Part shown: piece after piece, positions 4,213-46,206 of the stretch
Layout of the letters: each line of letters starts with the position of its first letter
Numbering within the stretch: the first letter of the stretch is position 1
Source: Clostridiales bacterium
GTDB lineage: Bacteria > Bacillota > Clostridia > Oscillospirales > Oscillospiraceae
NCBI GenBank assembly: GCA_022787565.1
Contig: JALFVN010000052.1
Span: 1 to 48,130, forward strand
Direction: 5' to 3'
DNA length: 48,130 bases
Program-made: the position numbers and the translations under genes
The notes under the pieces: model-generated
Database searches by the model: none
What the model was told of the DNA's origin: nothing
The model's input: only the letters and a program-made list of their open reading frames with translations

Positions 4213-4884
4213 TATCCGGAAACAGGTCCGCCCCTCCATGCTGCCCTCGAAAAAGCAGCTTTCGCCCTGGGCCACAGCCCGGACGGCGGCGTGTCTGCCG
4301 GGGAGGATCTCATGCTCATAGTCCACCGCGATAGCCCGCAGTTCCCTGCCCCGGTATTCCTCCGGCAGCATGGGCTCCACCGCGTCCAGATAGGCGGCGT
4401 TGTTCATGTGGCCGTTGCAGTCGATCTGGTCTGCTGAGGGCGTAAGCTCATATTCCCTGCCCCCCTCCGGCACACTGACCTTACGCTGGGGCTGAACCCG
4501 CCCCTCTTCTTCCCCCGCGACGGCAATGCCCCGGCTTTCGCCGCTGATCAGGCTGCGGCTGCCCATGTCCATGATGACCCAGGTACTCAGGCCGCTGACG
4601 ATCACTTCCCCGGCGGCGTCTTTGATCTCATAGCTGCGGGGGTAAATGGCCAGCCTGCTCTTTCCGGGCCAGGTGCTGATCTGGATCTCCTCGCCGGGCT
4701 GAGGCATACGACGGATGTCGATTCTCAGCTTGACCAGTACCCAGGTGCAGTTTTTCTCCGTCAGGACGTCCATACCGCCGCCCCGCCGGTCTGCGTCGTC
4801 CCCGGCAATGTCCTGCATAATGCGCAGAAGCTGGGAGGCGTGACCTCCCTGTTCATAAAAAAGCTTTCTTTTCAATCTTTCCAT
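4192..4884 (-). CDS. Acyl-ACP thioesterase
   Basis: A 230-residue protein with two tandem hot-dog folds, the architecture of the FatA/FatB-like bacterial acyl-ACP thioesterases. The N-terminal half has the FYEQGGHASQLLRIMQD segment typical of the family, and the C-terminal half has D-x-N-G-H-M-N-N (about residues 153-161), the motif holding the catalytic Asp, Asn and His. It releases free fatty acids from acyl carrier protein in the cytoplasm. ATG at 4884 is supported by a perfect AGGAGG eight bases upstream. It diverges from the permease gene with only 25 bp between start codons, so its promoter must lie inside the permease gene or the two share a compact control region. Tail overlaps the Nudix gene. 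Confidence 0.85.
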   Translation of the reverse strand: MERLKRKLFYEQGGHASQLLRIMQDIAGDDADRRGGGMDVLTEKNCTWVLVKLRIDIRRMPQPGEEIQISTWPGKSRLAIYPRSYEIKDAAGEVIVSGLSTWVIMDMGSRSLISGESRGIAVAGEEEGRVQPQRKVSVPEGGREYELTPSADQIDCNGHMNNAAYLDAVEPMLPEEYRGRELRAIAVDYEHEILPGRHAAVRAVAQGESCFFEGSMEGRTCFRISETFAV

Positions 4885-4909
4885 TTTGTCCTCCTGAGGG
4901 TGTTGTCTT

Positions 4910-6019
4910 ATGTCCCATGTAAAAGATTTTCTGAAGCGGGAGGCCGTGCTGTGCATCGCCTTTCTTGCCGCTGTGATCAGCTGTTTCTTTGTTCCCCCCG
5001 ACGGGGCTTATCTAAAATATATTGACCTGCGCACACTGGCGCTGCTCTATTGTCTGATGGTGGTGGTGGCGGGTCTGCGCAAGGCCGGCAGCTTCACCGC
5101 ACTGGCCCATTTTCTCTGCGAACGGGCCGGAAACCTGCGGCTCATGTCGGCAGTGCTGGTGGCGCTGTGCTTTTTCTCCTCCATGCTGATCACCAACGAT
5201 GTGGCGCTGCTGACCTTTGTGCCCTTCGCCGTGGTGGTGCTGGGCATGGCAAAGCGGGAAAAAGAGCTGGTCTGGGTGGTTGTGCTCCAGGCGGTGGCCG
5301 CCAATCTGGGCAGTATGCTGACGCCTGTGGGCAACCCTCAGAATCTCTATCTCTATTCCCGCTACGGCATGGGCGGAGTGGATTTTTTCTCCGCCACCGC
5401 GCCTGTATGGGGCCTGTCCCTGCTGCTGGTGATGGGCAGCTGTCTACTGATCAAAAAGGAGCCGGTCAGCGTGTTCCTGGGCGAAAAGCCCATCCTGCTG
5501 CGGAAATTGCTCCTGTTTTATGCCGCCATGTTCCTGCTGTGCCTGCTGGTGGTGTTCCGCCTGATCCGCTGGCCGGTAATGCTGGCACTGGTTCTGCTAC
5601 TGGTGGGCCTGTTTGACCGCCGCACCCTGCTGAAAGCCGATTTTCTCCTGCTGCTCACCTTTGTGTGCTTTTTCATCTTTGCGGGGAATCTGGCTCGGAT
5701 CGATGCGGTTGACCGGCTGCTGCGGCAAATACTGACCGGCCGGGAGCTGTTCGTGGGCGCTCTGTGCAGCCAGGTGATCAGCAACGTTCCCGCTGCCCTG
5801 CTGCTCTCCGGCTTCACGGAAAACGCCAGAGCCCTTCTGCTGGGGGTGAATATCGGCGGCCTGGGCACGCCGGTCGCCAGTCTTGCCAGTCTGATCGCCC
5901 TGAAGCTGTATTCCCATGCCGAAAGAGCGGAGCCCGGCGCCTTTCTCCGGCGCTTCAGTCTGCTCAATTTCCTGCTGCTGGCCGTTCTTTTGGCTTTTGG
6001 GTATATTTTGTTATTATAA
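4910..6019 (+). CDS. SLC13/ArsB-type anion permease
   Basis: A 369-residue, almost wholly hydrophobic protein with about ten membrane segments. Motifs typical of the citrate-transporter/ArsB (ion transporter) superfamily are visible: TNDVALLTFVP (about residues 91-101), G-N-P-Q-N-L (about 139-144) and the second-repeat S-N-V-P-A (about 291-295), which form the paired re-entrant loops of the transport site. It should move a carboxylate or oxyanion across the inner membrane, driven by Na+ or H+. Start ATG at 4910 has GAGGG upstream. The last codons and the TAA stop lie inside the left end of the palindromic element at 6012-6267, so the native C-terminus may have been altered by its insertion. 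Substrate unknown. Confidence 0.75.
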   Translation: MSHVKDFLKREAVLCIAFLAAVISCFFVPPDGAYLKYIDLRTLALLYCLMVVVAGLRKAGSFTALAHFLCERAGNLRLMSAVLVALCFFSSMLITNDVALLTFVPFAVVVLGMAKREKELVWVVVLQAVAANLGSMLTPVGNPQNLYLYSRYGMGGVDFFSATAPVWGLSLLLVMGSCLLIKKEPVSVFLGEKPILLRKLLLFYAAMFLLCLLVVFRLIRWPVMLALVLLLVGLFDRRTLLKADFLLLLTFVCFFIFAGNLARIDAVDRLLRQILTGRELFVGALCSQVISNVPAALLLSGFTENARALLLGVNIGGLGTPVASLASLIALKLYSHAERAEPGAFLRRFSLLNFLLLAVLLAFGYILLL

Positions 6020-9250: not shown

Positions 9251-10744
9251 TCAGCAATCAGTGGGTCTGGCTTTACGCTCTCTGTTTTTCTTTGTTGGCA
9301 GCGTATCGCGCAAGGCCACAAACAGGATGGAGGCCAGAGCGATGAGCAGGAACACAAGACAGATCGGCTTCTGTACGAAAATGCTGTAGCTGCCGTTGGA
9401 GATGACCATGGCGCGGCGGAAGTTCGTCTCGATAGTTGCGCCGAGAATAATGCCCAGCAGAGCCGGCGCGGCAGGAATTCCGCCAAGAGTAAACAGGAAG
9501 CCCACAATACCCATGACCAGGGCCGTCTGCATATCGAAGACCTTGTTGCCGGAGGCAAAGGAGCCGATGAAGCAAAGCAGCATGACGCTGGGCAGGAGGA
9601 TGTCGTTGGGAATCTTGATTACGTGCATGAACAGGCGTGTGCCGGCAAGGCCCAGAATGATCATCAGCACGTTGCAGATCAGCAGCATGGAGTAAATACC
9701 GGTGACGACCTCCGGGCTGTTCTGGAACAGCAGAGGGCCGGGCGTCAGCCCCTGGATGGTCAATGCGCCCATGAGCACGGCCGTAATGGTGTCGCCGGGG
9801 ATACCGAGAGTCAGCAGGGGAACCAGCGCGCCGCCGGTAACGCCGTTGTTGGCAGTTTCTGCGGCAAACAGGCCCTCGTAAGCGCCGGTACCGAACTTTT
9901 CAGGATTTTTGGAGGCGCGGCGGGCCTCATTGTAAGCAAGAAAGGCCGCGATACCGCCGCCTGTGGCGGGGACAATGCCAACGAACGTGCCGATCAGGGC
10001 GGAACGAATCATATTGGGGATGTTGTGGACAATTTCTTTTGCGGGAACAAGCTTGGTGGAGACCTCGGTGGACTCCATATCCACATGCTTTACCGAATCC
10101 ACTGCCTTGTTGATGACCTCTGTCAGCGCAAAGAGACCGATCAGAGCAGAGACGGTCTGGATGCCGCCCAGCATGGACTTGGTATAGGCGAAACGGCTCA
10201 TTCCGCCGATCTGGTCCACACCGACAGTGCTGATCATCAGGCCAAAGCAGCAGCTGAAAATGCCTTTGGAAATGCTCTTGGCGCAGAAACTGGCAACCAT
10301 GCTCAGTCCGAAAACGCCAATGGCAAAATACTCTGCGGGGCCGAAAGCAAGGGCAACCTTGGCGATCTGACCGGCCAGACAGATGAGAACCACATTGGAG
10401 AAGAGGCCGCCGAAGCCGGAAGCAATACAGGCTGTGGAAAGGGCCTCAGACGCACGGCCGGAACGGGCCAGAGGATAGCCGTCAAGCACCGTGGCAACGG
10501 CCTGGGGAGTACCGGGGGTACGGATCAGAATGGCAGCGATGGAGCCGCCGTAAGTACCGCCGACATAGATGCCCAACAGCAGCGCGAAGGAGGGAATAGG
10601 CTCCATACTGAAGGTTATGGGCAAAAGCAGCGCAACGCCCATGGTAGGAGTCAGGCCGGGCAGCGCGCCGATGACGATACCGGCGCCCACGCCTAACAGA
10701 CAGATCAGAATATTGGAAAATGTGAGGATAGAAGAGAAATCCAT
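9251..10744 (-). CDS. Tripartite tricarboxylate transporter, large permease TctA
   Basis: A 497-residue integral membrane protein with about 12 segments. It carries the TctA hallmark G-A-L-P-G-L-T-P (about residues 25-32) and, in the second half, the matching G-I-V-P-A-T-G-G-G-I-A segment with the LLTLGIPGD loop. TctA is the transport channel of secondary, cation-driven tricarboxylate/dicarboxylate uptake systems that use an extracytoplasmic binding protein. The start at 10744 was chosen because GGGAGG lies just upstream; an in-frame upstream start would overlap tctB more. It is the last gene of tctC-tctB-tctA. Substrates of the family include citrate, tartrate, aconitate and aromatic acids, so the cargo cannot be named. 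Confidence 0.92.
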   Translation of the reverse strand: MDFSSILTFSNILICLLGVGAGIVIGALPGLTPTMGVALLLPITFSMEPIPSFALLLGIYVGGTYGGSIAAILIRTPGTPQAVATVLDGYPLARSGRASEALSTACIASGFGGLFSNVVLICLAGQIAKVALAFGPAEYFAIGVFGLSMVASFCAKSISKGIFSCCFGLMISTVGVDQIGGMSRFAYTKSMLGGIQTVSALIGLFALTEVINKAVDSVKHVDMESTEVSTKLVPAKEIVHNIPNMIRSALIGTFVGIVPATGGGIAAFLAYNEARRASKNPEKFGTGAYEGLFAAETANNGVTGGALVPLLTLGIPGDTITAVLMGALTIQGLTPGPLLFQNSPEVVTGIYSMLLICNVLMIILGLAGTRLFMHVIKIPNDILLPSVMLLCFIGSFASGNKVFDMQTALVMGIVGFLFTLGGIPAAPALLGIILGATIETNFRRAMVISNGSYSIFVQKPICLVFLLIALASILFVALRDTLPTKKNRERKARPTDC

Positions 10745-10763
10745 ACTTTGTCTGCCTCCCTTC

Positions 10764-11276
10764 TCAGAACAGATCAACTACATACTGCAGCACGCCCATG
10801 GGCAGATTGGTCTGCAGCAGATAGTAGAAAGCCAGATACAGCGCCACAGGCAGGACGATGCTCATGATGACCATCAGTACCCATCTGCGGTTTCCGAAAA
10901 TGACCATCAGGGCAAAGTAGGCCAGGATGGACGAGAGAATATAGCCCAGGGGCTTGAAAAGGAGAAGATAGGCCAGGCAGTCCAGAATGGTCAGGAGTCC
11001 GCGAAGATAGCCTTTTTTCTCCTGTGCAGTCAAAGGATCACGGACATCAGGCTTGACAATGGCTTCGATCAGCATGATAAGCGACATGATGATTGCCAGA
11101 ACAGATACGATAGTGGGGAAAAAAGAGGCAGAGACCAGCATATAGCTGGCAGTCAGGTTGGGATAGGTCCTGGATGCAACAAGGCAGAGGACGGAGAAGA
11201 TCAGACAGGGTATCGCCGTCAGAATCCCTTTATTGATGCGCATGCCCTTTTTTTCTTCTGAGGTTTTTTCAGGCAT
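10764..11276 (-). CDS. Tripartite tricarboxylate transporter, small subunit TctB
   Basis: A 170-residue protein with four hydrophobic segments, as expected for TctB (about 140-170 residues). It has no catalytic motif; it associates with TctA in the membrane and is needed for uptake. The gene ends 19 bp before the tctA start. Between it and the tctC stop lies a 14-bp stem-loop (11301-11335), a layout that often lets the binding-protein transcript exceed that of the membrane subunits. Assignment depends on size, topology and position between tctC and tctA, since TctB sequences are weakly conserved. Confidence 0.85.
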   Translation of the reverse strand: MPEKTSEEKKGMRINKGILTAIPCLIFSVLCLVASRTYPNLTASYMLVSASFFPTIVSVLAIIMSLIMLIEAIVKPDVRDPLTAQEKKGYLRGLLTILDCLAYLLLFKPLGYILSSILAYFALMVIFGNRRWVLMVIMSIVLPVALYLAFYYLLQTNLPMGVLQYVVDLF

Positions 11277-11300
11277 AATCTTTTTCCTTTCTGTAAAGGT

Positions 11301-11335
11301 GCAGCCCGAAGCCGCTGCAAACGGCTTCGGGCTGC
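11301..11335 (-). promoter_or_regulatory. Stem-loop in the tctC-tctB gap
   Basis: A perfect 14-bp GC-rich stem (GCAGCCCGAAGCCG / CGGCTTCGGGCTGC, 7-nt loop). It has no T run of more than two or three bases, so it is more likely an mRNA 3'-end protector or attenuator than a full terminator. It would favour a high ratio of binding protein to permease. Confidence 0.65.
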
Positions 11336-11381
11336 GAATTGCAGATTCAGTATAAAGCCGTACGGGGACGAATCAGGTGAA

Positions 11382-12431
11382 TCACTCGGTCAGTGCGCCG
11401 CCGGCGATCAGAGCGCCTTTGATCACATCCCAGTAGCCCTGAATGGTTGCCTGGCAAGTCTCAAAGTCTTCGAAAGCGATCTGGATGCCCAGGTCGTACA
11501 GGCTCTGTGCAACTGCCTCGTCGGCGAGGCACTCGCTGATGGCGTCAGAGAGGATCTGTGCAACTGCGGGATCGGTGTCCTGGCCTGCCCAGATGCCGTA
11601 CCAGGTGTTGTAGGGATCCACGTTGTAGTCGACCATGGAGGGAGCATCCTCACCGGCAAAGGCGGAAGGAGCGGAGACAGCCAGCAGGGTCATGTCGCCG
11701 GACTGCAGGTACTGAGCAGCGCCGGAGTAGGGAACGCAGAGGGCGTCAACATGGCCGCCCAGAACCTCGGTGATGGAGGTTGCGGTACCGTCGGTGGGAA
11801 CGTTGGTGATCTGGATGCCCAGCTCGTTGGCGACGTTCAGCACTGCCAGGTGTGCGGAGGTGAACTGGCCGGGAACAGCATAGGTCAGCTCGCCGGGGTG
11901 TTCCTTAGCATAGGCGATGAAGTCATCCATGGTCTGGATTCCCTTGCTGTTGTTGCTGGCAACGCAGAGAGCAACTGCGGAGATACCGACAATGCAGACG
12001 GGAGTGCCGGCCTCGTCAAGACCATAGGTGGTGTTGCCCATCAGGACCTGAGTAATGGGAGAACCCGGCTGGTCGAACATCAGGGTGTAGCCGTCGTTGC
12101 CGCGGGAGAGCATCTCGGTGCGGCCAACAACGCCGCTGCCGCCGGTAACATTTTCAACCACAACGCTGACGCCCAGCTTCTCGGACAGAGCATCTGCCAG
12201 AACGCGTGCAGCCAGGTCGGTATCGCCGCCGGCACCGTAGCCGACGATGATGGTGATGTTCTTCTTGGGCCAATCCAGCTTGGGAGCTTCAGACTCTTCA
12301 GCGGGAGCTGCGGACTCTGCGGGGGCTGCGGACTCTGCGGGAGCTGCGGACTCTGCGGGGGCGCTGTTTCCACATGCGGCCAGAGCGAAGATCATGCACA
12401 TGCAGAGAATAACTGCCAAAATCTTTTTCAT
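11382..12431 (-). CDS. Tripartite tricarboxylate transporter, binding lipoprotein TctC
   Basis: A 349-residue secreted protein of the TctC/Bug family. The N-terminus (MKKILAVILCMCMIFALAACG) is a lipoprotein signal with lipobox A-A-C at about residue 20, so the mature protein is anchored outside the membrane. A low-complexity linker of Ala-Pro-Glu-Ser repeats (about residues 24-46) leads to the two-lobed binding domain, which begins at KNITIIVGYGAGGDTDLAAR, the usual Bug opening; GGSGVVGR follows. It captures a carboxylate and delivers it to TctAB. ATG at 12431 was chosen because it begins the signal peptide and has AAAGG upstream. It is the first gene of the operon, behind the GATAT-type operator region. 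Confidence 0.92.
   Translation of the reverse strand: MKKILAVILCMCMIFALAACGNSAPAESAAPAESAAPAESAAPAEESEAPKLDWPKKNITIIVGYGAGGDTDLAARVLADALSEKLGVSVVVENVTGGSGVVGRTEMLSRGNDGYTLMFDQPGSPITQVLMGNTTYGLDEAGTPVCIVGISAVALCVASNNSKGIQTMDDFIAYAKEHPGELTYAVPGQFTSAHLAVLNVANELGIQITNVPTDGTATSITEVLGGHVDALCVPYSGAAQYLQSGDMTLLAVSAPSAFAGEDAPSMVDYNVDPYNTWYGIWAGQDTDPAVAQILSDAISECLADEAVAQSLYDLGIQIAFEDFETCQATIQGYWDVIKGALIAGGALTE
12292..12366 (-). repeat. 18-bp tandem repeat in the tctC linker
   Basis: About three and a half copies of an 18-bp unit (GACTCTGCGGGRGCTGCG on the plus strand) with a 21-bp divergent first copy. It encodes the Ala-Ala-Pro-Ala-Glu-Ser spacer between the lipid anchor and the binding domain. Copy number is likely to vary between strains by slippage, in steps of six residues and without breaking the frame. 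Confidence 0.8.
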
Positions 12432-12551
12432 TTCTTTTTTTCCTTTCTTTTTTTGATTTTGTTCATGGGCAGCCGGGATTATTCCGGACAGCCAAACCAA
12501 TCTGATAAAATTAAAACATATTTTTGTATGTTGTATCAATTAGTTATATTT

Positions 12552-12596
12552 GATATGAAATATCGAATTACTTGATATTTTATATCGTTCAATATC
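12552..12596 (-). promoter_or_regulatory. Tandem GATAT/ATATC operators upstream of tctC
   Basis: Two copies of GATAT-N3-ATATC lie at 12552-12564 and 12574-12586, their starts 22 bp (two helical turns) apart, followed by another ATATC at 12592-12596. They sit 120-165 bp upstream of the tctC start, in an AT-rich gap that also holds a TTGATA hexamer on the minus strand near 12537. The same half-sites occur at the other LysR-controlled starts (21141-21176 and 25843-25864). Confidence 0.55.
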
Positions 12597-14057
12597 TTAC
12601 AGTTTCATGGACCCTGTGTTCAGGAACCGTTCATGCCAGGACAGAGCTTTGCTGAGCACATGGGGCGTATGTCCGCCGGCAGTACGGCAGGCCTCTTCAA
12701 AGTACTCGCGCAGCATGGGACGGTAGTCCGGGTGAGCGCAGTTTTCAATAATGGCCTCAGCGCGCTGGCGGGGCGTTTTCCAGCGGAGGTCAGCAACGCC
12801 ATACTCCGTCACAATCACGTCCACATCGTGCTCCGTATGGTCCACATGGCTGACCATCGGCACGATGCAGGAAATGTCTCCGTTTTTGGCAAGCGAGCCG
12901 GTGGAGAAGATGGTAAGCCCCGCATTGCGGGCAAAATCTCCGCTTCCCCCGATGCCGTTCATGATCTTGCTGCCCATAACATGGGTGGAGTTCACGTTGC
13001 CGTAGATATCCACCTCGATGGGCGTATTCATGGAGATCAGCTGCAGGCGGCGCACGACCTCCGGGTTGTTGGCGATCTCCTGGGGACGGATAACAATGCG
13101 CTCACGGTAATAATCAATATTGCCGTACAGCTCCTCCTGCATCTCCCTGGAGAGGGAGAGAGCAGTGGTGGAAGCCTGAGCAATCACGCCGTCTCTGACC
13201 AGCTTCAGCGCGCTGTCCTGCATAACCTCGGTATACATGCTCAGGCCGCGGAAATCCCTTCCCAGGCCGCTGAGCACCGCGTTGGCCACATTGCCCACGC
13301 CGGATTGGATGGGACGCAGGTTTTGGGGCTGTCTTCCCGCCTCCACTTCCGCCTTCAGAAAGCCCACAATGTTTTCCGAGATCTGTACGGAGATATCGTC
13401 CGGTTCCTTGAAGTGGGGATAGCTGCCGCTGTCGCCCGTCAGGACAATGGCGGCAATTTTATCCGCCCTGCAGGGAATGTAAGGCAGCCCGATCCTGTCG
13501 GATGCACTGCGGATAGGGATCACATCGTCACCCACGGTGAAGATATCGTGCATACCGTAAAGTGCGTCGGGAAGATCCTGGTTCAGTTCAAGAATCACCC
13601 TGTCGGCCATGCGGACAAAACTGTCCGTAGCGCCTACGGAGGCTGTGGGAATAATGCCGTCTTCGGTCAGCGCGGAGCATTCCACGATGGCCCAGTCCAG
13701 CCTGGGCCCCACACCTCTGTTGACCATCATGGGAAGATGGCTCAGGTGGAAATCCTCATAACCTACCTGTCCGGCGTTGATGGCATTGCGCAGCGCCTTG
13801 TCGCTTTGATAGGGCGCGCGGAAAGCCACCAAACCTGCACGGGTCAGTTCCCCGTCCAGCTCATCGCCCACGGAAGCGCCGGTAAGTACCGTCAGCTTGT
13901 CTGCCCGGCCAAGTCCGGCAATGGCCTTGGGGACCTGGGTGGGATAGCCCACCAGCGTAAAGCCGGAAAAGCCAATGCAGCTTCCCGGCTGCACAAGAGC
14001 AGCTGCCTCCTCGGCAGTCATAATGTGTTTTCTTAGTATATCAGGTATGTACTTCAT
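12597..14057 (-). CDS. CoA transferase of the acetyl-CoA hydrolase/transferase family
   Basis: A 486-residue protein matching the Cat1/AarC-type family (about 480-510 residues) that swaps CoA between acids such as succinate, acetate, butyrate or 4-hydroxybutyrate. Visible landmarks are GSCIGFSGFT near the N-terminus (about 27-36), the glycine-rich QSGVGNVANAVLSGL segment (about 254-268), and the C-terminal IVTEYGVADLRWKTPRQRA (about 428-446), characteristic of the family. The catalytic glutamate was not mapped. ATG at 14057 follows GGTGAT; an in-frame TTG six bases upstream is the alternative. It lies 6 bp after the transporter gene at 14064 and is the last gene of the long minus-strand catabolic operon. 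Confidence 0.88.
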   Translation of the reverse strand: MKYIPDILRKHIMTAEEAAALVQPGSCIGFSGFTLVGYPTQVPKAIAGLGRADKLTVLTGASVGDELDGELTRAGLVAFRAPYQSDKALRNAINAGQVGYEDFHLSHLPMMVNRGVGPRLDWAIVECSALTEDGIIPTASVGATDSFVRMADRVILELNQDLPDALYGMHDIFTVGDDVIPIRSASDRIGLPYIPCRADKIAAIVLTGDSGSYPHFKEPDDISVQISENIVGFLKAEVEAGRQPQNLRPIQSGVGNVANAVLSGLGRDFRGLSMYTEVMQDSALKLVRDGVIAQASTTALSLSREMQEELYGNIDYYRERIVIRPQEIANNPEVVRRLQLISMNTPIEVDIYGNVNSTHVMGSKIMNGIGGSGDFARNAGLTIFSTGSLAKNGDISCIVPMVSHVDHTEHDVDVIVTEYGVADLRWKTPRQRAEAIIENCAHPDYRPMLREYFEEACRTAGGHTPHVLSKALSWHERFLNTGSMKL

Positions 14058-36513: not shown

Positions 36514-36785
<272 letters not shown>

Positions 36786-36935
36786 AAAAGCTCACTGAGT
36801 ATTCTTTTTTATATAGCTTGCTTCTACTAAGAAGCAGGTTTTTCTGTTTCTTGGACACTTCTTCTATTGCAAATTATATCTTAAAGCCAAAACTAAAAAC
36901 AACGACATTTACAATACTGCCACTTTCTCCTTTCA

Positions 36936-36961: not shown

Positions 36962-37273
36962 TTTATTATTTCATGGCAGAAATACGTTTCACCGTGAGAC
37001 GCATTTTGACTTGCCAACTTGAATAATTAGATTTTATGCTTCTTTCATATATAGCAAAAAGCACAAACGCCGTTTCCTTTGCTGCTTGTGGAATATCTGA
37101 GCTTTCTATCACTAGAATTATCGAGACAATTCACACATAACACGTACAATGCTGATTTACTTTCTTGTTCTTGTATGATACAATTATAATGTTGAAATAT
37201 TAGATATATTATCTATTTTGTATGCATAATCTCGAATATCCTTAAATTGAATCAGTATAAAGGTGTATAACAT
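36962..37273 (+). promoter_or_regulatory. 312-bp AT-rich upstream region of the methyltransferase operon
   Basis: No gene is visible. A good -10 box TATAAT lies at 37185-37190, but only weak -35 candidates exist (TTTCTT at 37161-37166, 18-bp spacer). TTGAAATATTAGATATATTATCTATTT (split: TTGAAATATTAG and ATATATTATCTATTT) forms an AT-rich imperfect palindrome at about 37192-37219, a possible operator. AAGGTG precedes the ATG at 37274. The first 50 bp belong to the direct repeat shared with 42246-42468. Confidence 0.4.
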
Positions 37274-38125
37274 ATGAATTCGTTTCTAAAGTGGCCTGGT
37301 GGAAAACGATGGTTTGTAGGAAAGTATGGTTGCATTTTCCCCTCAGAGTATAATTGCTATATAGAGCCTTTTTTAGGTAGTGCATCTGTCTTTTTTTTTC
37401 TACGACCGCAACGAGCTATATTATCTGATACCAATGAGGAACTAATTAATTTATATATTGTAATGAGGGATCATCCACAAGTACTCGCAACACTTATGGA
37501 AAAACATGAGCAGGAACACTGTAAGGAGTATTATTATCGTACCCGAAGTTTAAAAACGGGAGATCTAACTGAACGTGCTGCCAGATTTCTATACTTAAAC
37601 CGTACATGCTATAACGGAATGTATAGGGTTAACCAAAAAGGAGAATTTAATGTTCCTATTGGCACAAAAACAAAGTGTGCCAACGATGTGGCTTGTTTTG
37701 AAGAATACTCCTCTCTATTACAAAATGCTAGTTTATTCTCCCGCGATTTTGAGGAATCTATTTCACAAGCACAGCACGGCGATTTGTTGTTCATCGATCC
37801 TCCGTATGCGGTTGCAAGCAAGCATGGACCATTTATTAACTATAATGACAAGTTGTTTTCATGGGATGACCAGAAACGATTACTGAAATCTCTATGTGAA
37901 GCAAAACGTCGGGGCGCATATATTATAGCAACAAACTCAAGTAATTCCCAGTTGAATGAAATGTATTTAGAGAATGATTTCTTTACACGAACGGTATGTC
38001 GCCGCTGTGTAATGGCAGCAGATCCCGCCAAACGCACCTCCACTGAAGAGTTACTTATAACATCGTATGATATTACTAAAGATTTAGAAGGTGATGTAAT
38101 TGGTCAAAATCGCATTATTGAGTGA
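37274..38125 (+). CDS. D12-class DNA adenine methyltransferase (Dam/DpnII-like)
   Basis: A 283-residue N6-adenine methyltransferase of the D12/Dam class. The AdoMet-binding start F-L-K-W-P-G-G-K is at 4-11, motif I E-P-F-L-G-S-A-S-V-F at 31-40, and catalytic motif IV D-P-P-Y at 175-178. Order and length match M.DpnII and Dam, whose target is GATC, but the specificity region cannot be read with certainty. No restriction enzyme gene of known type lies next to it. It is the first gene of a four-gene series and its 3' end overlaps the next gene by 26 bp. Likely roles are self-marking of host DNA for a defence system or an orphan methylase. Confidence 0.92.
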   Translation: MNSFLKWPGGKRWFVGKYGCIFPSEYNCYIEPFLGSASVFFFLRPQRAILSDTNEELINLYIVMRDHPQVLATLMEKHEQEHCKEYYYRTRSLKTGDLTERAARFLYLNRTCYNGMYRVNQKGEFNVPIGTKTKCANDVACFEEYSSLLQNASLFSRDFEESISQAQHGDLLFIDPPYAVASKHGPFINYNDKLFSWDDQKRLLKSLCEAKRRGAYIIATNSSNSQLNEMYLENDFFTRTVCRRCVMAADPAKRTSTEELLITSYDITKDLEGDVIGQNRIIE

Positions 38126-39361
38126 TATCCATTTTGGAAAGGATTCACGATGCTCTGATTTTGCAATCCCGGGACAGCAAATTGCTGATGATGTTATTGG
38201 CGGGAATTCATTATATGGTGGACTTGAGTCTAAGTTATTAGAGTACAAACCAGACTATATTCTATGCACGGGAGACTTAACCTCCTCCGGAAAACCGCTA
38301 GAATTTAAGTATTGCCTTGAGAAACTGTATGGCTTAGCCGACAAGGTTTCTGTCCCTAAACAAAATATTATTTATTGTATTGGAAATCATGATGTGGATT
38401 GGGCGCTTATTGCACATTCTTCAAAGCCAGACGAATACGAGAAATTGAATCGAGATTTCGATAGTGATGAGTCTGCTTTTCTTAATAATTATTATGGTAG
38501 CATTACACACTCATGGTTGCAGCACACGCAATACATCACCAATGTAGATCCATATCTTAATTTATTTTCTTCGGTCGGCCCAATTCCAATGACAGGTCTT
38601 ATCGAGCGGGATGATCTTGTAATATTTGTCTTAAATTCTGGCTTTCTCTGTTCATCCAAGCAAGAATAATTCATGGTAAAATTTCTACCACGCAACTTGA
38701 GTGGCTGGAATCTGAACTGCAAAAGCAGACCAGCATAAACAAATGGAAGATAATTATTCTGCACCACCATCCATTTGCCTACGAATATCCTATAGTTTAC
38801 CCCGAGTACAGTACTTTGGAGGAAGGACCCCAGTTACAGCGTTTATGCGGTCAATATGGTGTTAATTTAGTTGTTCATGGACATTATCACTTTCCTATAG
38901 CAAAAACAAGGCGTGAGAGTGGTTGGAACAACCCGGTAACATTCATAAGTTCTGGCAGTCTTTCCGTAAATCAAGAAGGAAGATTGAACGGTAGCATCCC
39001 TAACACTTTTCATTACATTCAGCTTGAAGAATACCCTAATCTTATAAAACTCATTACTTACGAATACTCTTTAGGAAGTGGATGGCGCAAGGTGTCTTCG
39101 AATCGAGAAACACTTCCTCTGGATCATGAAATGTTTTTTGGTGAGCTAGCAGTCGATGATAGTGAGGCAAAAGAGGTCATTAAAAACTTCCCTGTAAACA
39201 CTGCTATTGCATATAAAGATATCGATCCAAGACTTAAATATATAGCGCCGAGCCACCTCAACAAGTTATTAATCGAAGTCCACGGGCTTGATCTTTCGGG
39301 TAGTTTCCCCGGAAGCATTAAGATCCACAGCAGCGGAAAGGAGGAGCAATCGGATGAATAA
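38100..39361 (+). pseudogene. Metallophosphoesterase, split by a -1 frameshift
   Basis: A calcineurin-like phosphoesterase of about 419 residues when the frames are joined. The first frame (38100-38669) has D-I-H at 9-11, G-D-L-T-S-S-G at 58-64 and G-N-H-D at 95-98. It then stops at TAA 38667-38669. The other motifs continue in the -1 frame: L-H-H-H-P-F near 38758 and G-H-Y-H at about 38879-38890, and the frame runs on to TAA at 39359-39361. The switch must fall between about 38640 and 38665; no standard slippery heptamer is present there, so a one-base deletion or sequencing error is likelier than programmed frameshifting. The enzyme would hydrolyse a phosphodiester (nuclease or cyclic nucleotide). 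It overlaps the methyltransferase by 26 bp and the ATPase by 8 bp. Confidence 0.85.
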
Positions 39362-41180
39362 GAAGAATGAACGTTATGCCGATAAACTTTTTAGAACAAC
39401 ATACCAAAATCCATTTAGTGATATTCAAGCGAGAACGTTCTCAGATATAAAAATATCGTCTGAATTTGTTCCAACATCATTGTTTTGGACGCTGTTTAAT
39501 GACCAACACGAGGTAGTTATAGGAACACGTGGTAGCGGAAAAACAATACTAATGCGTATGATGCGCTATTCAATGCTAAAGAGCATCCATCACAAAAAAG
39601 CAAGGGAATTAGTGGCGGAAAAGAAATTTTTTGCTCTTTATGTTCCAATGAGATATGAGTTTATAGAAAGCATTTCTTCGCCAAAGCTTTCGACAGAACA
39701 ACAAGATGCATGGTTTTGTTTTGCCGTAAATTGTTTAATTGCTGACTCATTAATTGTCGAGCTTAAATCATTGCTTTCGGATTATCCCGTTGACGAACAA
39801 CTCGAATTAGAGTTCAAACTCACCCGGAAAATGAGTCATATGTGGGGAATTGACAATTACCTGTCCAAAGCTGATTTAAATGAATTGAGAACGGCAGTCC
39901 GTAAAATATATAATATGCATTCCCCCAAACAACCTCTACCAGAATCAGTACCACCAGTTTTCTTAAGTTCCCTGTGTTCCGCTCTGGCAGCAGTCAATAT
40001 TGAAATATCTAACATCCTACATTTCAGCACACAACCCACTTGGATTATTTGTGTTGATGAAGCGGAATTTTTAAGGCCAAATCAAATGAACTGTATCAGC
40101 AAAGTTATGCGGTCTGAGTCACAGCACATCGCAATAAAAATCGCTGATCTTCCCTATTATCATGATATGAGCTGCCCTCAAGGGCGAAAAATACACGCTA
40201 CTGTTGGAAATGACTATAAGTTAACTCTCGTAAAGATAAGCGAAAAAGAGTTTATCACCCTTACCAACATGCTCTGTAGGACTAGACTTCAACCATACTA
40301 TGGCGAAAAAGAGCAAATCACGTTAGAGACATTTGTTGGTTCTGTTGGGAATGATGATTATCTGGATTATTTCAAAGCTGAATTTCCAAAAGCATCTTCC
40401 GAACTTGATATTCGAAACGGTATACTAAGTACAATTTCCGAAGACCGTAGAAAAACAGCGTCTCGTACAACTGATGAAAAGGTTTTGTCACAGAGTATAT
40501 TTAAGAAATTAGCGCCAATATACTACTTACGCGAAATGTACAAACGCGCCCAGAGGGGCAACTCAAAACCCGGCTGGTTTGCCGGAGCAAAGATGATACG
40601 AAGAATTTCAAATGGTAATCCCCGGCTATTTCTCCGTATCATGGATGCGCTCTTCTACAAAGCACAGTCATCAAAACTTACCCCTAAAATCCAGAGTGAA
40701 ACCTTACATGATTTCTCCGCTAAATATTGTAGTGAAACCGAGTCATTAGAAGATTGCGGGCCGGAAGTTGCTATAAAATTGAAAATCATTGCAGAGAAAA
40801 TCAAAGCTACTACCCATAACGATGAACTGAAAGAATCTGGGACTACGTTTCGCTTTTTAGACTCTGAATTTGAAAAGCAGAGAAAGTGGACTGAAATTGC
40901 AATTGCAAATTCCAGACTTTTCGTTGATGAGATATCATTACTTAACGGGTTAACAAGCAACTCTGTATTTGAGCTTTCAAATGTCTATGCGACATATTAC
41001 TGGCTTCCCATGAGACGCAATAGTAATTGCCCGAGAATTTCTATTTCTGAAAGCAATGAAGAAAAACCATATTCTTATACCATTACAAAGCCAAAGCCAA
41101 AGTCAAAGCAAAAGGAAAAGTCAGAGTTGTCTGGGCAAATGAAACTTTTTGATGAAGAGGGTAATGCAAATGACCATTAA
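39354..41180 (+). CDS. ORC/CDC6-like AAA ATPase
   Basis: A 608-residue P-loop ATPase. Walker A is G-T-R-G-S-G-K-T at 57-64, Walker B I-I-C-V-D-E with Asp235-Glu236, and a sensor-2-like S-N-G-N-P-R at about 419-424, the arrangement of ORC/CDC6 or STAND-like AAA proteins. The C-terminus (about 590-608) has a Lys-rich linker then MKLFDEEG. The long insert between Walker A and B (about 65-225) is alpha-helical and unrecognised. ATG at 39354 was chosen for the perfect GGAGGAG upstream. It overlaps both neighbours (8 and 11 bp). In defence operons such ATPases act as sensors or motors for an effector enzyme; the phosphoesterase is the obvious partner here. Confidence 0.85.
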   Translation: MNKKNERYADKLFRTTYQNPFSDIQARTFSDIKISSEFVPTSLFWTLFNDQHEVVIGTRGSGKTILMRMMRYSMLKSIHHKKARELVAEKKFFALYVPMRYEFIESISSPKLSTEQQDAWFCFAVNCLIADSLIVELKSLLSDYPVDEQLELEFKLTRKMSHMWGIDNYLSKADLNELRTAVRKIYNMHSPKQPLPESVPPVFLSSLCSALAAVNIEISNILHFSTQPTWIICVDEAEFLRPNQMNCISKVMRSESQHIAIKIADLPYYHDMSCPQGRKIHATVGNDYKLTLVKISEKEFITLTNMLCRTRLQPYYGEKEQITLETFVGSVGNDDYLDYFKAEFPKASSELDIRNGILSTISEDRRKTASRTTDEKVLSQSIFKKLAPIYYLREMYKRAQRGNSKPGWFAGAKMIRRISNGNPRLFLRIMDALFYKAQSSKLTPKIQSETLHDFSAKYCSETESLEDCGPEVAIKLKIIAEKIKATTHNDELKESGTTFRFLDSEFEKQRKWTEIAIANSRLFVDEISLLNGLTSNSVFELSNVYATYYWLPMRRNSNCPRISISESNEEKPYSYTITKPKPKSKQKEKSELSGQMKLFDEEGNANDH

Positions 41181-42132
41181 CAACTTCAGCACATACCAAT
41201 ACGCTGATCTTTCCGAAAACGATATATTAGTATGTGCGTTGGGATATGAATGCAGGTCATATTATCTGCTAGAAAAGAACTTAGCAACACGTAATAGCTC
41301 TAATACTTTGATCATCAATTTCGATGATTTACAAAAAGAGTGTTTGCCTAATAGCCTGTTATGCGAAATTGATGCCCTCGCACTCAAAACCGAAATCTGT
41401 TCATATTCTCAAGGCGAGAAATTTCAAGACAATGTGATAGCATTCCTCAACGAAGTAGTAGAAAGTGAAACGATTAGAAAGATCTATATTGATTATTCAG
41501 CTATGCCCCGTAATTGGTATTGTGCTCTACCCGGAAGAATCGAAAATGAAATACATAATAGGTGTTTAGATCTGGTTTTTCTTTATGTTGCTGGTATATA
41601 CCCAGAAAAGTATGAAAGTTATCCAACAGCAGGAATAGACCGTCTAAAGCTGTTTTCTGGAGGAGCTTTACCTAGAATTGATTCCGAACGAACACATTTA
41701 ATTGCATTAAGCTATGATACAAGAAGAACACAAAGCCTATTAAGCATGCTTGAGCCAGAATTTTTAATTGTGTGCTATGCCTATGATACGCCCGAAAAGA
41801 AAGCTGAAATTGAGGATGTTAACAGCGATATTATAAGGAGAGCCTCCGCTTCAGTTGCGCTTCCTATAAATGATTTTGTCTATATCTTGCAAAAAATGAA
41901 TGAAATCATTATAGAGCAAACTCGTGAGGGACAAATCATTATCATACCCGATGGCCCGAAACCACTCATTTTTGCGATGTCCCTTTCTTCTGTTCTTGCT
42001 GATATTGATGATGATATAACATGCTTACACATTAATAGAAACGAGCTCTTGGCTGATAACAAAGTCAAGGTATTAGCCCGTGAAAATGAAATATATGGCG
42101 TGAAAATTTTAATTGATAATATTGGCAACTAA
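41170..42132 (+). CDS. Unrecognised 320-residue alpha/beta protein
   Basis: I do not recognise the family. The protein seems to consist of two Rossmann-like halves. Conspicuous segments are A-L-G-Y-E-C-R-S (23-30), I-D-Y-S-A-M-P-R (107-114), GGALPR (about 164-169), LIALSYDTRRTQS and I-I-P-D-G-P-K-P-L (about 256-264). The last recalls the G-G-T-K loop of CARF-type nucleotide sensors, though this is only a resemblance. No signal peptide, membrane segment or nuclease motif is evident. Start ATG at 41170 has AAGAGG nine bases upstream; an ATG at 41164 is possible. It overlaps the ATPase gene by 11 bp and is the last gene of the operon, so it acts with it, perhaps as sensor or effector. Confidence 0.8.
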   Translation: MTINNFSTYQYADLSENDILVCALGYECRSYYLLEKNLATRNSSNTLIINFDDLQKECLPNSLLCEIDALALKTEICSYSQGEKFQDNVIAFLNEVVESETIRKIYIDYSAMPRNWYCALPGRIENEIHNRCLDLVFLYVAGIYPEKYESYPTAGIDRLKLFSGGALPRIDSERTHLIALSYDTRRTQSLLSMLEPEFLIVCYAYDTPEKKAEIEDVNSDIIRRASASVALPINDFVYILQKMNEIIIEQTREGQIIIIPDGPKPLIFAMSLSSVLADIDDDITCLHINRNELLADNKVKVLARENEIYGVKILIDNIGN

Positions 42133-42186: not shown

Positions 42187-42468
42187 GCTCGGGAGAGCGT
42201 TTGAATGGCATTCAAGAGGTCAGAAGTTTGAGCCTCCTTATCTCCTATGAAAAGCTCACCAAGTATTTTTTATATAGCTTGCTCTCAATATGGAGCCGTT
42301 TTTTTAACGGACACTTCTCCTAGATAAAAATCAAAATTTCAAATTACAGAGGCGATTCTGCTGCTTTCACTATCAGGGTCATTCCGTGAGGAATGGCCCT
42401 TTTTCCTTTTAGAGAGCGCTTTGCTGTGAAATAGGTTTCACGGTGAAACGCATTTTTTATTGCCCATT
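42187..42468 (+). repeat. Direct repeat of the tRNA-Ala 3' half and its flank
   Basis: 42191-42223 matches the tRNA (36727-36759) with a single change over 33 bases, and the match continues, weaker, through the acceptor end to 42245. The T-arm is diverged and CCA is lost (TATG instead), so it is not a tRNA gene. The following sequence parallels 36786-37014: AAAAGCTCAC, ATATAGCTTGCT, GGACACTTCT, the CATTCCGTGAGGAATGG hairpin and the GTTTCACxGTGAxACGCATTTT stretch. It marks a junction between the island and the DNA to its right. Confidence 0.85.
42375..42400 (+). terminator. Hairpin in the second repeat copy
   Basis: An 11-bp stem AGGGTCATTCC / GGAATGGCCCT with loop GTGA and one G-U, followed by TTTTT. 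It is homologous to the tRNA terminator at 36936-36961 and could stop transcription leaving the four-gene operon. Confidence 0.75.
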
Positions 42469-42483
42469 TTACCGTGAGAGGAG

Positions 42484-42759
42484 GTGATACAAATATATTT
42501 TACGAAAAAAGAACACAGGGCGTTTGAGCGGCTGATGAAGGGCAAGCCGGGGTTTGACCATTATGACAGCAAGGTTCCTGGGGCGGATGAGGACTGCCGG
42601 ACCTGCCGGTCATACCGGCCCGGATGGAAGGACCGCTTCTGTGAATATCAGGAGTGCCCCTTTGCGCCCGGACGCAGTACCGCGAGAGCGAGCCCTGAAG
42701 GACGCGAGACGAAGGAAAACAAACAATCCCCGGTAAAACAAAAGAAGGAGGTCAAATGA
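42484..42759 (+). CDS. Small Cys-rich protein of ICE type
   Basis: A protein of about 88-91 residues. The N-terminus (YFTKKEHRAFERLMKG) resembles short proteins found at the start of clostridial conjugative elements. The middle has a possible zinc or Fe-S site: C-R-T-C, C-E-Y-Q-E-C with spacing C-x2-C-x12-C-x5-C (about residues 37-58). The tail is basic. The start is uncertain: a perfect AGGAGGTGA (42480-42488) overlaps the GTG at 42484, so initiation may be at a non-standard ATA codon (42493) 4 bp downstream. The stop overlaps the next start (ATGA). Function unknown; the Cys set suggests nucleic-acid or metal binding. Confidence 0.65.
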   Translation: MIQIYFTKKEHRAFERLMKGKPGFDHYDSKVPGADEDCRTCRSYRPGWKDRFCEYQECPFAPGRSTARASPEGRETKENKQSPVKQKKEVK

Positions 42760-44360
42760 CAACGCATAAAACCTGTGGACGCAGGCGGCTGACGGTGCTG
42801 CTCTGCGTTCTTTTGCTGTTCTGTACCGCGCTTGCGCCGCCCGCCTTTGCCGCGGGCGTTACCGTCTCTACCAAGTCGTCCACAGCATACTTTCAGACCT
42901 ACGCGAGCACCAGCACCTGGGTAGATATCGGCACACCCCAGCATGTGATCAATGAGACGGGAAAGGTGGCCTACTGTCTGCAAACATCATTGAACAGCCC
43001 CAGCAACTCCGGCTATTCCTCCGCAAACTGGAGCGACTTCTATGACCAGACCACCTTGACCGGCCTGCGCGCCATTCTGGAACACGGCTACCCGGCCTCA
43101 AACGGCGGCTTTACCGACAATCAGGCCCGTTATGCCACCGCCAACGCCATCCGCTTCTGGCTTGCCGAGAGAGGCTGTGAGGGGGTTCCCTCATGGATGA
43201 ATTACTCCGCCTACAGCTATATCTTCCGGGCAAAATCCGGCTATGAGGATCTGTTCAACTGGTGTATCGCCCTGCTTACCCTTGCCCGGAATCAGACCGT
43301 CTATACCCACAGCCTGTCTCTTTCCAGCTCCACAGTCACACTGACCCAGAACGGAGACACATTCACCGGCTCAGTCAATGTCTACCTGAACAACTGCAAC
43401 GGCGGCTTTGAGGTCAGCGGCAGCATCCCCAGCGGAATGAACGTACAGAAAAGCGGCAGCACAATCACGATCTCCGCGCCCCTGTCCCTTGCGGGGAAAA
43501 GCTATGAGTTCACCGTGAAGGGACTGGACAACCGCAGCGAGGCAAGTCTCTTGTTCTTCTCTCCGGACAATGCCAACGAACAGCGCGTTGTGGCCTATAC
43601 GCTGGACATCAACAGCGAGGTGACCTCCGCAAAGTTCAAGGTCGTTATCCCGGAGGCCGAAAATCCCACCGGCAGCCTGTCCATCCTGAAAATCGACGCG
43701 GATACCGGAGAGCCGCTGCAGGGCGTCAGCTTCCTCCTGTTTAATGAGGCAGGCTCCAATATCGCCTTCGGCAAAACCGACGCGGACGGGCGCATCTCTT
43801 TCAACGATCTGGCTCTTGGCAGCTACAGTTATCAGGAGAGCAGCGCCCTGCCTGGCTATGTGCTGGAGGACAGTATGCACCCCTTCACCCTGACGGAAAA
43901 CGGGCAGGTCGTTGCTGTGACACACCAGAACAAAAAACGCACGGCCTCCATACAGGTGAAGAAGCAGGACGCTTACGGAGATCCCCTCGCCGGTGCAGTC
44001 TTTGAACTGGAGGCATCCACCGACGGCGGAAACAGCTATACCGTTATCGGGACCTATGAGACCGGCGCAGACGGACTTGCCAAGTTCTCCGAACTACAGC
44101 CGGGAGATACGATCTACCGCCTGACGGAAATTCAGGCCCCGCCCGGCCATAGCTTGCAGGCCGGGACGATCTTTAGCGGAATATTGCCGGAAAACGGTGA
44201 ATACGACCTGAGCTTCACCGTCTGTGACTGCGCCATCCCGGCTCTGCCCTTTACCGGCAGCCGCTTCAATTTCACACCCTTTATTCCGCTCATGCTCTGC
44301 ATGGGCTTTTTTGTTACCCAAAATCTGAAAAGGAGAAAACAACATGAAGAAAATCCATAG
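42756..44360 (+). CDS. LPFTG-anchored adhesin with thioester-like and CnaB domains
   Basis: A 534-residue surface protein. Residues 1-33 are a signal peptide (cleavage near AFA-AG). A thioester-domain-like region (about 40-190) has the Y-C-L-Q cysteine (Cys74), but at the place where the family has a T-Q pair the text reads Y-A-T-A-N-A-I-R-F-W, so the isopeptide-type thioester may not form. A beta-sandwich region follows, then two CnaB/SpaA repeats (about 306-393 and 397-500) and the sortase signal L-P-F-T-G at 497-501, a membrane helix and a KRRK tail. It is probably the tip or adhesive subunit of a pilus. ATG at 42756 follows AAGGAGG and overlaps the previous stop. Confidence 0.85.
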   Translation: MTTHKTCGRRRLTVLLCVLLLFCTALAPPAFAAGVTVSTKSSTAYFQTYASTSTWVDIGTPQHVINETGKVAYCLQTSLNSPSNSGYSSANWSDFYDQTTLTGLRAILEHGYPASNGGFTDNQARYATANAIRFWLAERGCEGVPSWMNYSAYSYIFRAKSGYEDLFNWCIALLTLARNQTVYTHSLSLSSSTVTLTQNGDTFTGSVNVYLNNCNGGFEVSGSIPSGMNVQKSGSTITISAPLSLAGKSYEFTVKGLDNRSEASLLFFSPDNANEQRVVAYTLDINSEVTSAKFKVVIPEAENPTGSLSILKIDADTGEPLQGVSFLLFNEAGSNIAFGKTDADGRISFNDLALGSYSYQESSALPGYVLEDSMHPFTLTENGQVVAVTHQNKKRTASIQVKKQDAYGDPLAGAVFELEASTDGGNSYTVIGTYETGADGLAKFSELQPGDTIYRLTEIQAPPGHSLQAGTIFSGILPENGEYDLSFTVCDCAIPALPFTGSRFNFTPFIPLMLCMGFFVTQNLKRRKQHEENP

Positions 44361-46206
44361 AGCCTTAGCCCTCATCATGGCTATCGCGGTCATCTGCTGC
44401 CTGCCCATACAGGCCAGCGCGGCAAATGAAGCCGCAGCGGTTATCGACTACAGCAAAACCGCCGCTCTTTCCCTGTATAAATACGATCTGACCAGCGCGG
44501 AGGCAGACGGTGCCTGGGACACCGATGCCTATGTTTCCACCGGGATATACGACCAGAGCGTAAACGACGCCATGAGCAGCTACGCGGTTCAGGGCGTGGA
44601 GTTTATGTTCCTTCGCGTTGCGGATATCAGCCTGTATAACGGCGACGAAAACGGCGGGCATAAGGTCATTACACTGTACGGCTTTACAGACACCACATTT
44701 CTCACTGCAATCGGACTTGGTACTGCCGACGCTCATCATGCGGAAAATGGTGTCTCCTACTTTACTTCCGACGCGCTGAATACCGCTCTTGCTGCGGCCC
44801 TCAGCAACAATGCAACCAGCGTGAAAAACAGCCTTGAAAGCTTTGCAAAGTCCAGCGGAACCGCAATGCCCGTCACCGATGAGTACGGCCACAGCCAGGT
44901 CTCCGGCCTTGCACTGGGTCTGTACCTGGTGGTGGAGACAAGAGTGCCCGAGAACATCACCTCTACCTGCAATCCCTTCCTTGTCTCTCTGCCCATGACC
45001 ACCATTGACGGAAATGCCTGGAACTATGATGTGACCGTATACCCCAAGAACAGAAGCGGTATGCCCACACTGGAAAAGACCGTCCGTGAAGCCAAAGCCG
45101 ACACCGGCAAGAACAACGGTCTCACCAATGACATCACCGACGGTTATGCCGCCAGCGCCAGCGCTTCCGCTGGGGATGTGGTGGACTACCAGATCATCTC
45201 CACGCTGCCCACCATTACCTCTCAGGCGTCTTTTCTGAACCAGTATACCTTTGTGGATCAGCTGTCCAAAGGCATCACCTACAACAAGAATGATGTAAAG
45301 ATCGAGTTCTTCGAGGACGCAGCCTGCACGGAGCCGATGGCAGCATGGGATGAAGCCTGCGGGAAATTTGCGGTCAGCTATTCCGAACTGTCCACGGGAC
45401 AGAAGATGACCATCGCCATGACGGAGACAGGGCTTGCGGAGATCAACGACAGTGAAGCAGTCTATGGCACTGACAGCCTGAACCGGGGGTATTCCGACTG
45501 CACCCTGCGCATCACCTATTCCTGCACCCTCAATTCTGACGCCAAACTGGTATACGGCGACAGCGGCAACCCCAACGCCGTAACCCTCACCTGGAGCCGC
45601 ACCAACATTGAGTATACCGACACCCTTTACAGCGACGCCCATGTTTACAGCTACGGGATCGACATGACCAAGAAGTTCTCTGACGGCGCGGGGAGCTTTG
45701 AAAACGTCAAGTTCATTCTCCGCAACGACACTGACGGCTACCATGTGACCGCAAAGCTGCTTGACGGCGTCTACTATGTGACCGGACATGCGGCGGCTGA
45801 GAGCCAGGCCACAGTGTTTGTCCCCGGTTCGGACGGCAAGGTCATCCTGCGGGGCCTTGAGGATGATACCTACGTCGCCACAGAGCTGGAGACGGACGAG
45901 GGCTATAACCTGCTCAAGAGCAGCATCACCGTGGTGATCTCCGCCGTTGAGGGCGAAGCCTGCCCCGACTGCCACCGGCCTTTGCTCACCGCCTCTGCCA
46001 CGGTCAACGACAAAGCAGTGGAGATGAAGGAGGATAACGGCTCTGTTCACGCGGCAGTACCCTTTACCGTCATCAATACCAAGGGCTTTGAGCTGCCCAA
46101 GACCGGCTCCTACGGGACCTGGATGTTTACCGTCTGCGGCGTTCTTGCCATGGGCGCGGCGGCATTTATCCTCTTTAAGCTCAGCCGGAAGAAAAAGTCC
46201 ATGTAA
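44344..46206 (+). CDS. Major pilin (SpaA-type backbone, isopeptide-forming)
   Basis: A 620-residue precursor. It has a signal peptide (1-27), an N-terminal D1-like domain, and the pilin motif Y-P-K-N at 233-236, whose Lys235 is the nucleophile joined to the next subunit by the pilus sortase. A long D2 domain (about 245-450) and a CnaB-like C-terminal domain with an E-box (A-T-E-L-E-T near 512-517) follow. The anchor is L-P-K-T-G at 584-588, a membrane helix and a basic tail. These make it the polymerised shaft subunit of a sortase-assembled pilus. The start overlaps the adhesin gene by 17 bp, so the two are coupled. Confidence 0.88.
   Translation: MKKIHRALALIMAIAVICCLPIQASAANEAAAVIDYSKTAALSLYKYDLTSAEADGAWDTDAYVSTGIYDQSVNDAMSSYAVQGVEFMFLRVADISLYNGDENGGHKVITLYGFTDTTFLTAIGLGTADAHHAENGVSYFTSDALNTALAAALSNNATSVKNSLESFAKSSGTAMPVTDEYGHSQVSGLALGLYLVVETRVPENITSTCNPFLVSLPMTTIDGNAWNYDVTVYPKNRSGMPTLEKTVREAKADTGKNNGLTNDITDGYAASASASAGDVVDYQIISTLPTITSQASFLNQYTFVDQLSKGITYNKNDVKIEFFEDAACTEPMAAWDEACGKFAVSYSELSTGQKMTIAMTETGLAEINDSEAVYGTDSLNRGYSDCTLRITYSCTLNSDAKLVYGDSGNPNAVTLTWSRTNIEYTDTLYSDAHVYSYGIDMTKKFSDGAGSFENVKFILRNDTDGYHVTAKLLDGVYYVTGHAAAESQATVFVPGSDGKVILRGLEDDTYVATELETDEGYNLLKSSITVVISAVEGEACPDCHRPLLTASATVNDKAVEMKEDNGSVHAAVPFTVINTKGFELPKTGSYGTWMFTVCGVLAMGAAAFILFKLSRKKKSM

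Follow-up and report, generated by a model that had tools for sequence, protein, structure and literature searches.

The window analysed here is a 48,130-nucleotide stretch of a Clostridiales genome, and an island within it carries four co-directional genes, encoding a D12-class adenine methyltransferase, a metallophosphoesterase (MPE), an ORC/CDC6-like ATPase and a tandem CARF protein. On balance, these genes are best read as a damaged copy of a mobile defence system that comprises four genes and is widespread, in which a Dam-type methyltransferase would supply the self mark while the ATPase, the MPE and the CARF protein would together provide the effector. The more general claim, that the genes form a defence system whose self mark is a methyl group, can be made with good confidence. 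The sequence basis for this reading comprises the conserved operon, active sites that are intact in relatives, the CARF fold and the replacement of the operon methyltransferase by host Dam.

The four genes lie on the forward strand and overlap by 26, 8 and 11 bp, as the preliminary description had it; its coordinates hold, with a TTG at 38100 as the MPE start, and profile matches confirm the families it gave for the first three proteins (D12 methyltransferase, calcineurin-type phosphoesterase and AAA ATPase). The methyltransferase (37274..38125) matches PF02086 (2.9e-48) and scores 227 bits against TIGR00571, for which the cut-off is 114.85, and with its DPPY motif it falls within the Dam/DpnII family; its nearest solved relatives are the DpnII methyltransferase (PDB 2dpm, 1.8e-47) and then Escherichia coli Dam. 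A housekeeping Dam was considered as its identity and rejected: the gene is the sole TIGR00571 match in the genome and stands inside the island. The MPE gene (38100..39361) matches PF00149 in its first piece (3.3e-9). The ATPase (39354..41180, inside an open reading frame at 39288-41180) matches PF24389 (2.4e-82) and has in its tail the motif QMKLF (41136..41150), which motif enrichment marks as resembling a beta-clamp-binding motif. The fourth gene (41170..42132, inside an open reading frame at 41149-42132) does encode a 320-residue protein, as described earlier, but the label ‘unknown’ falls away: it is a tandem CARF protein, as judged from its match over residues 13-317 to the PADLOC CARF6 model PDLC01921 (1.7e-74), an AlphaFold2 model and fold matches, with a SAVED-like fold also matched. 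The CARF6 label reportedly stems from the 2020 CARF classification. The protein may bind a cyclic oligonucleotide. No effector domain was found on the CARF protein, and single-sequence searches of the PDB with the window CARF protein or ATPase gave no match.

The MPE had been taken for one open gene, and this does not hold in the window. Translations show a stop in its first frame at 38667-38669, with the second half continuing in another frame to 39361; the frame shift is placed between 38612 and 38669. Frameshifting as the norm for this gene is ruled out by the relatives, where the MPE is a single open reading frame of 369-480 amino acids in all 46 genomic relatives among the matches listed. 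Provided that the frame break does not stem from the assembly, the window copy of the operon is probably inactive because its MPE is broken. The nearest relative, in Lachnospiraceae bacterium 10-1, is 51% identical in the methyltransferase, 42% in the ATPase, 37% in the CARF protein and 34% and 31% in the two MPE pieces.

The island of ∼5 kb directly follows a forward-strand tRNA-Ala (GGC) gene (36710..36785, ARAGORN), which is its probable integration site. The tRNA 3′ part and the bases after it form the left att-like repeat (36727..36807), which is 83% alike to a right copy of 81 nt with a degenerate tRNA-Ala 3′ part (42191..42271), both read on the forward strand. Further repeats of 42, 39 and 29 nt occur at nearly equal spacing to this pair, and the att-like repeat alignment overall spans 299 columns at 69% identity. 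The GC content is 0.355-0.398 in the 1-kb bins of 37001-42000 and 0.472-0.619 in the remaining bins of the window; with the imperfect direct repeats, this bears out the earlier description of an AT-rich island between att-like repeats. No integrase-like gene was seen by eye among the island’s open reading frames of at least 80 amino acids. Within 36526-36807, a partial copy of the tRNA 5′ part and its upstream stretch (repeats D2 and D6) lies upstream of the tRNA-Ala gene, exact fragments of the same tRNA-Ala occur in many genomes of the genus, and the site looks like a repeated integration site. To the right of the island, a pair of long surface-protein-like genes occupies 42756-46206; this flank is itself variable, since a DNA match to it is found in 16 of 41 genus genomes. 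Across the window, GATC is over-represented rather than avoided (260 sites against 202 in shuffles, with none of 100 shuffles as high).

The spread of the system was followed by an ATPase-only alignment scan of 84,980 species genomes, which gave at least 46 loci; profiles of the other three proteins were then run on the open reading frames of these loci, so that the linkage is established for ATPases near the seeds and not for all of PF24389. Among the matches listed, the MPE gene is directly upstream of the ATPase in 46/46 loci and the CARF gene directly downstream in 44/46, the remaining two being loci where the contig ends in or just past the ATPase frame. A Dam-type gene adjoins this trio in 36 of the 46, upstream in 33 and after the CARF gene in three, two of these on the opposite strand. 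Gene junctions, computed from longest-frame starts, are overlapping or at most 20 bp in 36/36, 49/50 and 48/48 cases (median −4 bp). The hosts listed belong to at least seven phyla: Pseudomonadota (24), Bacteroidota (9), Actinomycetota (8, counting the Rhodococcus locus L032, which the tree labels Cyanobacteriota), Planctomycetota (2) and one each of Bacillota, Gemmatimonadota and Acidobacteriota. Plasmids of Cupriavidus, Sinorhizobium (two records) and Methylobacterium carry all four genes in the same order, and a Pseudoalteromonas plasmid carries the last three. The recurrence of the operon order is beyond chance, as the same order is found in the loci of relatives. Of the outcomes named beforehand as speaking against a new system, neither was seen: the homologues do not lie scattered among unrelated neighbours, and the set matched no named system or housekeeping function.

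The catalytic motifs are equally constant. The MPE metal-binding positions D9, H11, D59, N96, H97, D98, H210, H248 and H250 are each kept in 50/50 alignment rows, as are the GxRGxGKT (Walker A) and DExE (Walker B) motifs of the ATPase, and DPPY is present in 40/40 operon methyltransferases. The alignments and the ATPase tree leave out L001, L002 (own genome) and L005 (a near copy of L004), and the tree also lacks L040, whose ATPase is cut; the ATPase frame of L051 ends early (493 amino acids), with the contig end ∼100 bases further on.

The system is nevertheless sparse: PDLC01921 found the window’s own genome alone, 1/394 genomes of the order and 1/398 of the phylum, as one model of a CARF6 subfamily that could miss divergent members. 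Neighbours beyond the operon were examined for 14 loci and five plasmid records. In L020 (1-4215) and L044 (4813-8798), the trio is flanked by TniQ and type I-F cas genes, with Csy3 in both and a Csy2-like gene in L020; these settings resemble type I-F CRISPR-associated transposons, a likeness of TniQ and cas genes only. A tyrosine integrase adjoins the trio in L010 and lies ∼2.4 kb off in L023. The earlier idea of a self-marking methyltransferase on a mobile, defence-like set of several genes is supported. The window CARF and ATPase proteins had no match in phages and viral contigs, alignment A3 had none in viral contigs, the window CARF protein had none in plasmids, and the Serratia trio was not found in 20,395 E. 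coli records.

Single loci have additional neighbours. L013 has a second MPE-like frame of 290 amino acids directly after the CARF gene (10789-11658), and in L006 the opposite strand past the operon encodes a CHAT-domain protein and a further metallophosphoesterase (10472-13944). In L007, a 614-residue protein without a Pfam or NCBIfam match is encoded directly upstream of the MPE (3886-5730), and its C-terminal part resembles, by eye, a PD-(D/E)xK nuclease. The contig of L030 is binned as Nitrosomonadales with an ATPase nearly identical to that of the Alteromonadaceae locus L023, and is probably mis-binned.

An indication of what the trio depends on comes from the loci that lack a Dam-type gene beside it, 10 of the 46 among the matches listed. 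Seven of these 10 genomes encode Dam elsewhere (294-313 bits), namely Serratia, three Pseudoalteromonas, an Alteromonadaceae, Aliivibrio and Vibrio, whereas a second Dam over the cut-off is present in only 3/36 listed genomes with an operon Dam (L016, L029 and L040; Fisher 2e-4). Within the Gammaproteobacteria listed, the split is 7/7 against 0/7 (Fisher 6e-4), where one genome with an operon Dam, L028, has another hit of 110.7 bits, just under the cut-off of 114.85. L018 and L027 have another D12-class methyltransferase adjacent in place of the Dam-type enzyme, and the last Dam-less locus, L030, on a 4.6-kb contig of a 1.3-Mb metagenome-assembled genome and a near copy of L023, is not judgeable. 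The trio therefore recurs with Dam-type enzymes, with other D12 enzymes and without a methyltransferase of its own. On the ATPase tree, the Dam label needs five changes; three of five independent pairs are informative, all as predicted but not enough to reach significance (p 0.25), in a pair test that excludes L030, the plasmids and the window. The pattern points to an operon methyltransferase that is replaceable by host Dam, and because of the split of 7/10 against 3/36, the trio seems to rely for its self mark on a host genome methylated at adenine in the Dam manner.

It is fairly probable that GATC is this mark for most members. Four Dam positions are relevant here, which we take to have roles in GATC specificity: operon enzymes have arginine at position 124 in 40/40 and proline at 134 in 38/40, lysine 9 is replaced by arginine in 34/40 and most lack tyrosine 138. 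Some members may use a mark other than GATC, because the D12 enzyme of L018 and L027 is of a different type.

What the MPE does bears on the best-surviving alternative. The earlier proposal took the MPE for a nuclease or nucleotide-degrading effector; by profile and by fold, cyclic-nucleotide phosphodiesterases and SMPDL3A are closer to it than Mre11/SbcD is. In the profile search, Lmo2642 (1.5e-20) and Rv0805 score best among solved structures, ahead of SbcD and Mre11. The folds closest to the model of the L008 MPE (pLDDT 77.8) are those of YydD-YydB (chain B of a model), Lmo2642, GpdQ, Rv0805 and SMPDL3B/3A, and Mre11 comes at rank 27. The NCBIfam model DS9_1 (NF053862) matches the same protein at 1.6e-25 (89.9 bits, far below the cut-off of 420). 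Support for a nucleotide-degrading role is no weaker than that for a nuclease role; the choice between DNA nuclease and nucleotide hydrolase is about even, and the MPE could cut DNA. These relatives, together with the CARF fold, also suit a model in which the MPE is a cyclic-nucleotide phosphodiesterase controlling the CARF ligand, the ATPase passes the signal on and methylation has only an indirect part. This is unlikely: the operon has no cyclase, SMODS cyclases occur in just 5/47 genomes (with a weak one in the window’s own), and the tie to Dam methylation would be left unexplained.

The ATPase tail invites a second alternative. The tails are variable and many, including that of the window, end in Q-x-x-L-F, a pattern like that of the bacterial beta-clamp-binding motif. 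A strict form of the pattern was derived from three rows; with these left out, it occurs within the last 25 residues of 16/45 ATPases (shuffle mean 1.3, maximum 7). Elsewhere in the ATPases, it occurs in 31/682 stretches of 40 residues, and among the final 40 residues of the partners in 2/51 MPE, 0/49 CARF and 0/40 methyltransferase frames. A loose form, picked after the tails were seen, fits 36/48 tails and leaves 12/48 without even that. L030 and L051 are excluded from the counts out of 45 and 48. Tethering of the ATPase to the sliding clamp is given an even chance. The clamp-like motif, the ORC/CDC6-like ATPase and the Dam link would all fit a Dam-linked replication or repair unit for housekeeping or element maintenance, like mismatch repair with its Dam, MutL, MutH and clamp. 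Such a role is quite improbable in view of the sparse distribution by one CARF model, the plasmid settings, the positions beside integrases or TniQ and type I-F cas genes, and the presence of a CARF sensor.

The CARF and SAVED-like folds could also suggest an ancillary module activated by the cyclic oligonucleotides of type III CRISPR or CBASS, a reading that is dismissed as highly improbable on the paucity of SMODS and on the Cas10 models TIGR02577, with 0/47 genomes matched, and TIGR02578, with 0/47 over the cut-off and weak short matches in six (the 46 hosts among the matches listed and the window’s own genome). These models exceed their cut-offs in 1/14 and 3/14 control genomes, respectively, so that a divergent Cas10 could be missed. 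PF22335 was tried as a Cas10 probe and set aside: it matched 18/47 genomes, nine over the cut-off, with a best score of 36.5 bits and mostly part-length matches, and an E. coli control matched too, so the hits were read as cross-matches, presumably to GGDEF proteins, and the TIGR models were used instead. Because neither model exceeds its cut-off in any of the 47 genomes, the type III CRISPR link is rejected and the CARF protein here is not taken as a type III ancillary.

In the preferred reading, a defence system with a Dam-type self mark, the Dam-family methyltransferase would mark host DNA as self, most likely at GATC, and the ATPase, MPE and tandem-CARF protein would form one effector unit. 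The ATPase would survey replicating DNA, perhaps held on the sliding clamp by its QxxLF tail, and DNA without the mark would trigger the unit. A nucleotide ligand on the CARF protein may gate or sustain it, and the MPE would do the damage, by DNA cutting or nucleotide hydrolysis. The most specific version, in which a clamp-tethered ATPase looks for the Dam mark on DNA under replication, makes use of host Dam where one is present and is CARF-gated without Cas10 or a CD-NTase, is offered tentatively. A CARF sensor working without either enzyme would imply an as-yet unrecognised nucleotide signal.

The system looks unnamed, judged by PADLOC 2.0, Pfam, NCBIfam and a literature search. No matching model in these libraries names the four-gene set, in agreement with the earlier failure to match it to a named system; the set is absent from the literature search results, and the 2020 CARF classification may already note the neighbourhood. 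It is of a known kind, a multi-gene ATP-dependent system sparing methylated DNA, as in BREX and restriction-modification, with a composition new to the libraries used. The parts of BREX and BREX-related systems include a methyltransferase, an ORC/CDC6-like ATPase and a phosphoesterase. The likeness lies in an operon combining an adenine methyltransferase with the other two, according to the available excerpt of PMC12839542. The present set differs in its Dam-type methyltransferase, a calcineurin-type MPE for PglZ, a PF24389 ATPase and a CARF protein. A PglZ-type Pfam match was seen in none of its proteins, the phosphoesterase being PF00149. The methyltransferase resembles type II restriction-modification of the DpnII/Dam kind, being nearest to that of DpnII and then E. 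coli Dam, but an ATPase-containing unit of three proteins takes the place of the restriction endonuclease, and no restriction endonuclease match was found among the four proteins with PADLOC, Pfam or NCBIfam. Can1, Csm6 and Cam1 of type III CRISPR share the CARF fold, and Can1 also has two CARF domains per chain; unlike them, the CARF protein of this set has no effector domain found and no Cas10 over the cut-off in the 47 genomes. CARF_STK_AAA in PADLOC combines CARF with an AAA+ ATPase that has a P-loop arginine, and differs in having a kinase for the MPE and one fused protein, with no Dam noted in the excerpt available (PMC4012209); the Sinorhizobium ATPase matches its model at 1.6e-4. DS-8 and DS-9 also use a SMPDL3A-like metallophosphatase in defence, with other partners, a NACHT domain in DS-8 and a HAD phosphatase in DS-9; as far as the excerpt of that paper goes, the phosphatase residues are required for defence, including those of DS-9 (PMC13092281).

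If the preferred reading is true, bacteria share a widespread, conserved defence system that reads a common epigenetic mark and in which the task of a dedicated methylase seems to be taken over by a housekeeping enzyme. A trio from Vibrio, Pseudoalteromonas or Serratia would then be tolerated solely in dam+ E. coli. A role of CARF outside CRISPR becomes directly testable, and the system may join immunity to the replication clamp.
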